Positions 16,812-20,036 of a stretch of DNA of 27,048 nt are shown here, in pieces; positions within the stretch are counted from its first letter, which is position 1, and every line of letters starts with the position of its first letter. The notes below the pieces were generated by a model that searched no databases, was not told the DNA's origin, and saw only the letters and a list, made by a program, of their open reading frames with translations. The DNA comes from a virus, in the IMG/VR virus record IMGVR_UViG_3300042503_001394, positions 1-27,048 of that record; one strand, 5' to 3'. A program made the position numbers and the translations under genes.

Positions 16812-17186
16812 CTATTTATTTTCTACAATATCTATCAACTTGACCAAGCAAGCAAGTTCTGCTTCCTCGTATGTATAAAAATCTTCTTGATACATTTTAC
16901 CTAATGATTCTCCAGGTTTTGTGATGTGCCATTGCCAAGACTCTTGACTTATAGATGTAATGGTAGAATGCAATTGATACTTCTCTCTAAACCATCTAAA
17001 TGCTTGTTGGAATAGTGGGGTTGAAATTACTGTTACGCCACACCACTCGATAAATTCATCAGGATGAGTTTGGAAGTTATAGATAAAACTATTGTTTTGT
17101 TCATCCACATAATACATACAAGGTTCATCAAATCCAAGTTGCTTCATCTTTAAAGCTAACTCAAAAGGTATAAATTCTTTTTCCAT
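16812..17186 (-). CDS. Hypothetical protein, tandem paralogue A
   Basis: A 124-aa product with the order: FIPFELALKMKQLGFDEPC, a variable middle, QAFRWFREKYQLHS, a second variable region, and YEEAELACLVKLIDIVENK. The upstream neighbour (17190-17585) repeats this layout with the same blocks, so the two are tandem duplicates that diverged mainly in the middle. I recall this family, often in several copies, in Bacteroidota phages and plasmids; its function is unknown. Confidence 0.85.
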   Translation of the reverse strand: MEKEFIPFELALKMKQLGFDEPCMYYVDEQNNSFIYNFQTHPDEFIEWCGVTVISTPLFQQAFRWFREKYQLHSTITSISQESWQWHITKPGESLGKMYQEDFYTYEEAELACLVKLIDIVENK

Positions 17187-17189
17187 AAC

Positions 17190-17585
17190 TTATTTATTTT
17201 GTACAATTTCAATTAATTTTTTAAGACATTCAAGTTCTGCTTCTTCGTATGTTCTACATGATGAAAAGGTGTCATCTGCTTTACCAACTTCAGCTAGATA
17301 TTCCTCATCTGTACCTTTCAAAGAGGTAAAGTTATGAATCACGTGATGTAAATCATACTTCTCTCTAAACCATCTGAATGCTTGTGAGAAGGTAGGAACT
17401 AAGATATGAGCTTCACAAATTTCATTTTCTTCAAACAATGCGTGTAATATGTGACTATCCTTATAACAACCTTTAACTACTAAATCAGATGTGATATATT
17501 TAGCTAAACAAGGTTTATCAAATCCTAGTTGCTTCATCTTTAAACTTAACTCATAAGGTAAAAAGTCTTTCTGTAAATTTTTCAT
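17190..17585 (-). CDS. Hypothetical protein, tandem paralogue B
   Basis: A 131-aa product with FLPYELSLKMKQLGFDKPC, QAFRWFREKYDLHHVI and YEEAELECLKKLIEIVQNK, the same block order as the neighbouring copy. An upstream ATG at 17609 would add eight residues but would overlap the next gene. The ATG at 17585 gives an N-terminus (MKNLQKDFLPYE) matching the paralogue and leaves a 1-nt gap, so it is preferred. Function unknown. Confidence 0.83.
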   Translation of the reverse strand: MKNLQKDFLPYELSLKMKQLGFDKPCLAKYITSDLVVKGCYKDSHILHALFEENEICEAHILVPTFSQAFRWFREKYDLHHVIHNFTSLKGTDEEYLAEVGKADDTFSSCRTYEEAELECLKKLIEIVQNK

Positions 17586-17586
17586 A

Positions 17587-18258
17587 CTATTTCTTTTTAA
17601 ATTGTTCAAACAATTCTTGTGTTGTATAGTATTTCATATCTAAACCAATCCAATTGTTTTTAGATGTAGTTTGAAAATCTTTAATTCTAATCCATTCAGC
17701 AAATTCAATAGCCTCACTATACATTCTTTCTTGTTGCCATTTAGCACCTTCTATAAATGATTCTCTTTTTTCTGGAAATACATACGCCATCATTCCATGA
17801 TTTGTTGCATACTTGACAGCAGCTTCTTCAAGTGTTTCTTGTTTAGGTTTTTCTATCTGATAACCACCATTGTTTTTCACAATTTTTACACTTACCATTT
17901 CAATAGCACAAGGCTCACATTGTACTGCTCTTTTATCACCCATAAACTCTGTTTTACAAGTAACACAAGTACAAGAATAATAACCTGGTGCATAACCACC
18001 TATTGGATATTGTTTAGGTTCTTCTTGTGGAATGATGATTTTGTAAATAAATTCTCTTGGTGTAAATTGAATCATGTTAATCATTGATTCAACCTCAACC
18101 CACTCACAGCTCGGATTCTTAACAAACCACTCTAAAAACTCATCATCAATAGCTTGTATACCATTTTTTTGAAGTTCTGTATCAGTAGATAATAATATTT
18201 CTTTGTATCCTGTATCAGATTGTAAATACCATTTATCTTTATGTTTAATTACTTTCAT
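17587..18258 (-). CDS. Accessory protein with Cys4 zinc motif; probable C-terminal part of a gene split by the HNH insertion
   Basis: A 223-aa product from ATG 18258 (an upstream TTG is less likely). Parts in order: IDDEFLEWFVKNPSCEWVEVE (about 38-57, first 20 of these are the diagnostic block), IYKIIIPQEEPK, a Cys4 knuckle C98-x2-C101...C114-x2-C117, LEEAAVKYATNHG and FIEGAKWQQERMY. I recall longer Bacteroidota phage proteins in which an N-terminal KNIHxLPTDKPSRL...EEIKEGDW part comes before the DDEFLEWFVKNPSCE block. Here that N-terminal part lies as a separate 51-aa frame on the other side of the HNH gene. The zinc site suggests nucleic-acid or protein binding; function unknown. It overlaps the HNH gene end by 14 nt and ends with TAG. 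Confidence 0.8.
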   Translation of the reverse strand: MKVIKHKDKWYLQSDTGYKEILLSTDTELQKNGIQAIDDEFLEWFVKNPSCEWVEVESMINMIQFTPREFIYKIIIPQEEPKQYPIGGYAPGYYSCTCVTCKTEFMGDKRAVQCEPCAIEMVSVKIVKNNGGYQIEKPKQETLEEAAVKYATNHGMMAYVFPEKRESFIEGAKWQQERMYSEAIEFAEWIRIKDFQTTSKNNWIGLDMKYYTTQELFEQFKKK

Positions 18259-18796
18259 AATTTTCAAATTTTATATTTTTATATTTCATTGTCCCTCTTG
18301 ATATTGATTGTCTTATTGTTTTACCATATTTAACATTTCCAAACAATGCAACAGATGCTTCAGAAGCAGAACCAAAAATAATTTCTTGTCCATCTTCAAA
18401 TATTGCTTTTATCTTTTTACCAGCAGAAGAATTTACACCTGTTTTACCTATAAAATGATGTTGCTTGTTTGATTTAGAATAAGGAATAGGTTTTAACATA
18501 AGAACTTCTCTTGAGTGTTTTACATTTTCAGACCTACTCATCCACTCTAAGTTTTCTAAACTATTGTTTAACTTATTTCCATCAATATGATTTACAGTTT
18601 CAAGATTTAATGGATTAGGTATAAATGCTTCTGCTAACAATCTATGAGTTCTCCTTGATTTGTTTCCTATGTTTACTTGATAATAACCATGTGAACTAAT
18701 AGATTGAGAAAGTATTTTTCCTTTTATCTTTTTTCTAATTTGTCCTAAAGTATTTACTTCGTAATCACTAAAACTTGGTATTGTTTTCCATTCCAT
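18245..18796 (-). CDS. NUMOD4-HNH homing endonuclease
   Basis: Free-standing homing endonuclease of 183 aa. Residues 1-30 (MEWKTIPSFSDYEVNTLGQI) are a NUMOD4 motif. The HNH nuclease follows with HRLLAEAFIP (H51), NHIDGN (N69-H70, D72) and NNSLENLEW. Residues about 128-180 (IFEDGQEIIFGSASEAS, IRQSISRGTMKYKNI) form a NUMOD1-like DNA-binding repeat. The ATG at 18796 starts the NUMOD4 motif and lies just past a promoter; the longer frame to 18835 would use TTG and include the promoter, so it is rejected. It seems inserted between two parts of one ancestral gene. Confidence 0.93.
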   Translation of the reverse strand: MEWKTIPSFSDYEVNTLGQIRKKIKGKILSQSISSHGYYQVNIGNKSRRTHRLLAEAFIPNPLNLETVNHIDGNKLNNSLENLEWMSRSENVKHSREVLMLKPIPYSKSNKQHHFIGKTGVNSSAGKKIKAIFEDGQEIIFGSASEASVALFGNVKYGKTIRQSISRGTMKYKNIKFENYESN

Positions 18797-18821
18797 AATT
18801 TGATTATTTAAAATTAATATG

Positions 18822-18852
18822 CAAATATAAAACAATTATATTTATAAATCAA
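18822..18852 (-). promoter_or_regulatory. Promoter of the homing endonuclease gene
   Basis: Minus strand has TTG (852-850), a 20-nt spacer and TATATTTG (829-822), a full match to the Bacteroidota pattern, ending 25 nt before the HNH start codon. The TTG overlaps the stop codon of the 51-aa frame. It suggests the HNH gene brought its own promoter. Confidence 0.55.
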
Positions 18853-19004
18853 GGTAATTCTTTAATTTCTTCTGAATTAGTGATGTAGATGTTTTGAAAT
18901 ACAATGTCTGATTTCTTTGGGATAAGCGACATTATTTCTAATTTAGAATCAAAGTATCTTAACCTACTTGGTTTATCTGTTGGTAAAATGTGTATGTTTT
19001 TCAT
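18849..19004 (-). pseudogene. 51-aa frame, probable N-terminal fragment of the gene split by the HNH insertion
   Basis: From ATG 19004 to TGA 18849: starts MKNIHILPTDKPSRLRYFDS and ends NIYITNSEEIKELP. In the longer proteins of this kind that I remember, EEIKE is followed by GDW and a long C-terminal part. Here it stops two residues later, at the border of the HNH gene, and the matching C-terminal blocks are found at 17587-18258. It may still be translated as a short protein. The part-and-whole comparison is from memory and needs an alignment. Confidence 0.6.
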
Positions 19005-19036
19005 ATTATTTTTTTAAGTATTAAACAATTTTCCGC

Positions 19037-19139
19037 CACTGGACTAAATTTAAGGATGAGAAGTCCTCTATGCTGTACCAATCTTCACTTTTCCTATGGT
19101 CCGTTTTTTACCTAGTCTTTTTCTCAAGAAGACAGCATA
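19037..19139 (-). ncRNA. Candidate structured RNA or leader with pseudoknot
   Basis: A GC-richer stretch without a start-bearing frame between two genes. Helix A pairs 19069-19076 with 19132-19139 (8 bp, TATGCTGT/ACAGCATA). Helix B pairs 19042-19046 with 19113-19117 (GACTA/TAGTC). The two interleave, giving a pseudoknot. Alternative hairpins compete with helix B: 19041-19045 with 19062-19066 (GGACT/AGTCC), and 19094-19100 with 19110-19115. The GACTA...TAGTCC pair interleaved with another helix resembles the P3/P7 layout of group I introns, but the P4-P6 domain is missing. It forms the leader of the 51-aa frame. Strand and function are inferred. Confidence 0.35.
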
Positions 19140-19143
19140 ATTT

Positions 19144-19740
19144 TTATAAATAATGTTTTTTCAAAATAACATTATAGTAATCTATTTTAACAGATTCACC
19201 ATTTACCGAAATAATCCAATTTTGAGGAAACTTTTCCCTCATCATTTCAACTCTTTCTTTCCTGGTTTTGGTTTTGTCTGTTTCTAATTCATAATATAAC
19301 CAAGATTCCCAATAATGATCTTGTTCTGGAGCGTAAAATATAATTGCAATTTGATATCCAAAAAATACAAATGACCAAGTAGGACTATATTCAAATCTAA
19401 AATCTGTATCAGTCCATTTAATTTTCCATCCTAAACCTACAAAATCAAATCCTATCTTTTTAGGTGATGGGAATTGAGATTCGAGTTTACTATTATAATA
19501 ATCCTTAAATGGTTTTATTTCTCTTGGTTCAAAACCATCAACATATGAATTACGTTCATTATATTGTTTAATTCTTTCTATTTCCTTTAAAGCTGCTTCT
19601 GTAGCTTGTTTTGGAGTTGCTTTTTTCCAAACTCTAGGTAGAAAATAAGGGGTACCAATAGTTGTTTTACCAATATAAAACTTTAATTTTAAAGGTTTAA
19701 ATGGTGAGAAATATGTCTTTAAAAATGTAAACCTATTCAT
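19144..19740 (-). CDS. Hypothetical protein with hydrophobic segment, 198 aa
   Basis: A 198-aa product starting MNRFTFLKTYFSPFKPLKLK, with WKKATPKQATEAALKEIERI, GLGWKIKWTDTDFRFEYSP and a hydrophobic stretch WSFVFFGYQIAIIFYAPEQD (about 124-143), then WESWLYYELETDKTKTRKER. The hydrophobic stretch may be a membrane segment or a buried strand pair. I recall the pattern from unnamed Bacteroidota phage proteins. Its ATG shares one base with the stop of the upstream gene (TAATG). Confidence 0.84.
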   Translation of the reverse strand: MNRFTFLKTYFSPFKPLKLKFYIGKTTIGTPYFLPRVWKKATPKQATEAALKEIERIKQYNERNSYVDGFEPREIKPFKDYYNSKLESQFPSPKKIGFDFVGLGWKIKWTDTDFRFEYSPTWSFVFFGYQIAIIFYAPEQDHYWESWLYYELETDKTKTRKERVEMMREKFPQNWIISVNGESVKIDYYNVILKKHYL

Positions 19741-20036
19741 TAGTTTTCTTCTTTAGGAAAGTCACTAAATTTTAATCCCCACATTAATCCTACCCAAGCC
19801 ATTTGTTTTTCAGCTGATTTAGCATACATATTGAGTTTCTTTTGAAGATATTTCTTACCCCATAGTGTCCATTCCTCATATTGATCCATAGTGATAGTCC
19901 AATCATTAAACCAATTATCTTTACGGTCTTTTATATCCTCATATGTAACAGAATAACCTGCAATTTTAAACATTTCATTAATAAGATCTACCACAGCTAA
20001 ATCCCATTTTTCTTCTCGGGTTAATCTTTTTGCCAT
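19740..20036 (-). CDS. Hypothetical protein, 98 aa
   Basis: A Trp-rich helical product (KRLTREEKWDLAVVDLINEM, NWFNDWTITMDQYEEWTLWG, QMAWVGLMWGLKFSDF). Basic start, acidic end. It has a 1-nt overlap with the downstream gene and a 4-nt gap to the glucosaminidase gene. No family recognised. Confidence 0.82.
   Translation of the reverse strand: MAKRLTREEKWDLAVVDLINEMFKIAGYSVTYEDIKDRKDNWFNDWTITMDQYEEWTLWGKKYLQKKLNMYAKSAEKQMAWVGLMWGLKFSDFPKEEN

Follow-up and report, generated by a model that had tools for sequence, protein, structure and literature searches.

Closest described systems and the layout of the locus

Free-standing HNH nuclease genes that split phage genes are established (PMC2988022, PMC8351571, PMC10448857), and variable insertion of homing endonucleases is known from environmental phage genomes, including a Bacteroidetes phage data set (PMC7468147). 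The closest precedents for the case described here are mobE in nrdA of Aeromonas phage Aeh1, where by later accounts the split ribonucleotide reductase works (Friedrich et al. 2007, via PMC2988022, PMC8351571), and mobA in the topoisomerase gene 60 of T4, where an HNH gene likewise splits a phage gene into two frames (PMC2988022). In phage ICP1, HNH-3 homing endonucleases also lie between fragments of phage genes, and there the tape-measure fragments are rejoined by splicing (PMC10448857).

The window, i.e., the whole 27,048-nt stretch of DNA that was analysed (IMG/VR record IMGVR_UViG_3300042503_001394), holds a clear new case of this known phenomenon, and an unusually well controlled one. 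As in Aeh1, so far as the accounts above describe it, a free-standing HNH gene lies inside a phage coding sequence and both halves are open genes; on the same accounts, the Aeh1 host gene is characterised, whereas that of the window has no assigned function, and the window gene lacks its native linker and takes its downstream start from the inserted unit. The T4 case is a single lineage and a core enzyme, whereas the window element occupies one site in four diverged phages, and unlike ICP1 the window has no sign of splicing between the fragments. The locus thus adds a natural case of gene fission in which one element recurs in several diverged phages and over 100 relatives with an unsplit gene act as controls; and whereas the classical examples sit in core replication genes, this one does not. 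Our reading, very probably correct as judged from sequence comparison, is that insertion of the HNH gene split one host gene into two open halves, with homing as the likely mechanism. The parts are as follows:

18849–19004, minus strand: N-half of the host gene, 51 aa, ATG at 19004 to TGA at 18849, MKNIHILPTDKPSRL...NIYITNSEEIKELP
18858–18893, minus strand: conserved DNA block at the 5' insertion point, AACATCTACATCACTAATTCAGAAGAAATTAAAGAA
18822–18852, minus strand: candidate Bacteroidota promoter of the HNH gene, TTG-N20-TATATTTG
18245–18796, minus strand: HNH gene of homing-endonuclease type, 183 aa, ATG at 18796 to stop at 18245
18245–18258, minus strand: overlap of HNH end and C-half start, 14 nt, ATGAAAGTAATTAA
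17587–18258, minus strand: C-half of the host gene, 223 aa, ATG at 18258
18181–18857, minus strand: shared tract, 677 nt, with the LP-stop, a 52-nt spacer, the HNH gene and the first 26 C-half codons

A recheck of the reading frames found all coordinates of the initial annotation correct, including the 14-nt overlap, and likewise its observation that a TTG (18852–18850) overlaps the N-half stop TGA (18851–18849). The N-half is family sequence up to ...SEEIKE, while its final codons, LP and the TGA, derive from the inserted unit; the spacer that separates it from the HNH gene is AT-rich; and in the C-half, codons 1–26 belong to the shared tract and codons 27–223 are ordinary family sequence (TELQKNGIQAIDDEFLEWFVKNPSCE...EQFKKK). 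The N-half is preceded by a 139-nt non-coding gap (window 19005–19143) with an inverted repeat, TATGCTGT/ACAGCATA, which folds no better than shuffles and has no relatives among the fetched loci.

The HNH protein passes the Pfam cut-offs for NUMOD4 at residues 1–43 (PF07463, E=3.4e-9) and for HNH_3 at residues 49–92 (PF13392, E=1.3e-10), it matches PHROG 59 (E=6e-39) and PHROG 959, and its C-terminal part is probably DNA-binding. Nucleases of the HNH_3/NUMOD kind are often intron-encoded, as is I-HmuI, and on this ground the HNH gene might lie inside an intron or intein, with the uninterrupted protein still being made. I-HmuI of phage SPO1 is indeed the closest solved relative, with the same NUMOD4 and HNH module alignable over residues 1–95 (PDB 1u3e, E=1.1e-9). 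However, the non-coding sequence amounts to 52 nt 5' of the HNH gene and to none 3' of it, an insert too short for an HNH gene plus a ribozyme core, and the joined halves would be without the native linker of 26–50 aa. A group I intron was rejected, with no relevant Rfam match either in 17000–20000 at E≤1 or in the whole window, and so was an intein, the HNH gene occupying a different frame, closed by a stop at either side. We regard an intron or intein as very improbable; unlike I-HmuI, the HNH gene appears from its sequence to be of the free-standing type.

Uninterrupted relatives and the shared junction

A first scan of IMG/VR with the C-half gave 80 loci, dozens of which read through from the N block to the C block without a stop. 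When block profiles were combined with a second locus set taken from the family alignment, the N and C blocks were found in one frame and in the same order in 108 distinct ORFs, all of them on other viral contigs and without this HNH gene. These ORFs bear out the suggestion of the initial annotation that both frames occur in that order in one longer protein, each being a single homologue that spans the 51-aa and 223-aa frames, and they contradict the opposing case it had raised, in which the two frames would always be separate genes.

Exactly four family members have the N block alone, and each carries this HNH element at its break: the window, L163 (= L008), L164 (= L013) and L162; weaker matches of this kind are other protein families having just part of the N block. 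Those with the C block alone are the HNH-bearing loci, five contig-end fragments, L198, an intact gene on reading whose N block scores under the threshold, and L018, the carrier of a different HNH gene. That one other invasion and the contig-end fragments aside, the split members are only the carriers of this HNH gene. The known copies of the element are three complete ones (window, L163 and L164) and one 5' junction (L162); element-specific DNA patterns matched only L162, L163 and L164, and an HNH-wide scan gave, among the matches listed, distant HNH genes only.

The element starts at the identical base in all four loci, opening TTACCTTGATTTATAAATATAATTG... after the conserved block that ends GAAGAAATTAAAGAA, and the N-half ends in the same LP-stop in each. 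At this point empty family members read on as GGAGATTGG (IKE-GDW; base frequencies over 38 empty sites), so that the empty site runs ...GATGAAGAAATTAAAGAAGGAGATTGG... across the insertion point. The order of the blocks is not due to chance, given the 108 joined ORFs and the recurrence of an identical junction in three other contigs. The same recurrence, in IMG/VR contigs from other metagenomes, refutes an assembly chimera, a concern with any metagenomic viral contig such as the window; that an assembler joined the HNH gene into the host gene is practically negligible as an explanation.

The four loci have N-halves of different sequence and of 51, 52, 23 and 55 aa, while the shared tract is near-identical in L163 and L164, with flanks diverged on both sides. 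At the 3' end, identity passes the end of the HNH gene to C-half codon 26 (MKVIKHKDKWYLQS[DE]TGYKEILLSTD), followed by ordinary family divergence. The corresponding interval of intact genes is occupied by a hypervariable linker of 26–50 aa, absent from the split genes, that lies between an upstream island, TCTGATGAAGAAATTAAAGA, kept in 85 of the 108, and a downstream island kept in 102 (≤3 mismatches in 20 nt for both). The tract of about 677 nt lies between these two conserved islands and therefore replaces the host linker, and since it extends into the C-half, the HNH gene travels with the start codon and a new N-terminus of the downstream half. Among the viral contigs searched, the 26-codon stretch was never found without this HNH gene, nor was an empty allele found with the same KHKDKWYLQSDTGYKEILLSTD / KVIKHKDKWYLQSDTGYKEILLSTD linker. 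The initial annotation had called the locus a clean picture of invasion: the HNH insertion and its recurrent identical junction stand, but the insertion is not scarless, with the native linker lost and 26 C-half codons linked to the element. A hairpin at the start of the HNH gene is no more stable than in shuffles.

The host gene family belongs to uncultured Bacteroidota phages. A search of a bacterial genome collection returned just two partial matches, in Bacteroidota MAGs, and among isolated phages neither the full host protein nor the start of the C-half has a significant relative, the sole match to the C-half there being a zinc-ribbon-like stretch of 31–33 aa in Caulobacter phages.

Movement between diverged host genes

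The three complete HNH copies are 93.5–94.4% identical in DNA, with dN/dS of 0.14–0.34, which indicates purifying selection on the HNH gene. When the 80 relatives of the window C-half are ranked on sequence outside the tract, the HNH-less L006 and L001 come nearest, whereas L163 comes only 52nd and L164 61st. High HNH identity with such low host-gene ranks means that the history of the HNH gene differs from that of the host gene. Gene neighbourhoods differ among the four contigs, except for distant phrog_25117 relatives and a few others in L164. On these comparisons the element has moved between diverged host genes, in four loci and to the same site of otherwise empty alleles. The window has two tandem paralogues of phrog_25117, 41.6% identical, at 16812–17186 and 17190–17585, and a relative lies near the L164 split gene as well.

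These comparisons also bear on the idea that a cassette of HNH gene and C-half displaced the end of a paralogue already in place, of which a 51-aa N-terminal stub remains, so that the two halves come from different alleles. The first 26 C-half codons do occur only with this HNH gene, and the family is mosaic and multi-copy (tandem copies in L020 and L023), so halves can reshuffle. Past codon 26, however, the three C-halves differ strongly, and that of the window is nearer to L006 and L001 than to L163 or L164; the HNH gene thus did not carry a complete C-half along, and we consider such a replacement rather unlikely.

In the preferred reading, insertion by homing, the nuclease would cut or nick the uninterrupted gene at or near the conserved DNA block, and recombination-repair from an HNH-bearing copy would carry over the HNH gene with flanking sequence, bounded by the islands YITSDEEIKE upstream and TTDxDLIKDGVQAIDDEF downstream. 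The transferred unit would supply the N-half stop, its own promoter, the nuclease, and the C-half start codon with 26 new codons; with the start codon inside the unit, the C-half would be translated afresh at the HNH stop. Ordinary homologous recombination within so mosaic a gene family could also spread the element, yet the identical site and the identity of the nuclease favour homing with co-conversion.

Other HNH genes have invaded the same family. In L018 (2309–3522), the first 9–10 host codons (MKNLHIIPT^EEIWKDI) run in frame into a distant NUMOD4/HNH_3 gene, and the remainder of the host gene restarts after it. In three further loci, the host protein is interrupted after PKQ or SKQ by an in-frame fusion to a NUMOD4-HNH_3-AP2 nuclease; the remaining host part (KETLEE...) restarts as a separate overlapping ORF:

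L059, 2–1272: NUMOD4-HNH_3-AP2 fusion
L248, 464–2138: NUMOD4-HNH_3-AP2 fusion
L247, 3–1050, reverse strand: NUMOD4-HNH_3-AP2 fusion

Together with the site of the window element, these place the entries into the host family at three conserved blocks, and the family could thus serve as a model for nuclease site choice and for the upkeep of split-gene expression. It is possible, if on balance somewhat doubtful, that the unit combines a nuclease, a promoter of its own and a movable restart for the host gene, replacing the linker and keeping the downstream half expressed, and that the islands are landing sites for different HNH genes at the three positions.

Expression of the parts and the host protein

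The candidate promoter of the HNH gene consists of a -33-like TTG (18852–18850), 20 nt, and then TATATTTG (18829–18822), which agrees in full with the Bacteroidota -7 consensus TAnnTTTG (PMC6847099, PMC9723704). Such motif pairs occur 4 times on the minus strand versus 1.2 expected in shuffles, which makes the pair weak evidence when alone. The spacer has 0–1 substitutions in its 52 nt among three loci, versus an HNH synonymous distance of 0.12–0.19, and may hold a promoter in use. A scan for sigma-70-like promoters was uninformative, since the DNA is AT-rich.

The 14-nt overlap of HNH stop and C-half start is arranged in the same way in L163, and it offers a candidate restart; judged from this arrangement, translation of the C-half most likely starts anew at the HNH stop, and the two genes may be translationally coupled. 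L164 has an additional 97-aa HTH_17 (excisionase-like) gene (1902–2195) that neither the window nor L163 has. It lies precisely where the HNH gene would otherwise meet the restarted C-half, and it overlaps each of the two by a few bases (4 nt with the C-half).

The initial annotation held that the two halves are kept open rather than decayed. They are open at every locus where they are seen, although openness alone is not evidence of function, and the split gene might be a dead relic, inactivated by the insertion, whose open halves are merely recent. The host family is without an assigned function, and the protein has no functional match in Pfam, NCBIfam or PHROGs. In an AlphaFold2 model of the intact L006 protein (mean pLDDT 69), the break falls between strands 38–45 and 54–56 of the N-terminal beta-rich part, at moderate confidence; each half would then miss part of that predicted domain, and neither would fold as a whole domain. 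Against a relic, the C-half start is kept, overlapping either the HNH stop (L163) or the extra gene (L164), and change in C-half codons 1–27 between loci is mostly synonymous (dS 0.20–0.70 versus dN 0.02–0.05, on few sites). The C-half further retains the helical C-terminus of the L006 model and has a fresh start. We consider a relic unlikely, and the 51-aa piece may still complement the C-half. The L006 model has no significant fold match in the PDB, and its structural matches are uncharacterised viral proteins only, including A0A5S9BZ14 of Tenacibaculum phage PTm1.

Throughout the host family, near-invariant islands (MKNIHxLPTDKPSRL, YITSDEEIKEGDW, KIILTTDQDLIKDGVQAIDDEFLEWFVKNPSCE, KQETLEEA, GAKWQxERMYSEEE and EQFKKK) alternate with hypervariable linkers (alignment A2, 37 intact genes), and modules look swapped between genes, the C-terminus of the window gene being 98% identical to that of L014 over 49 aa. 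At residues ~85–122 of the C-half lies a cysteine-rich module, CTCVTCKTEFMGDKRAVQCEPCA, common to phrog_8931/10481 and Caulobacter phages, which sits in other gene contexts at many loci (L024–L050).
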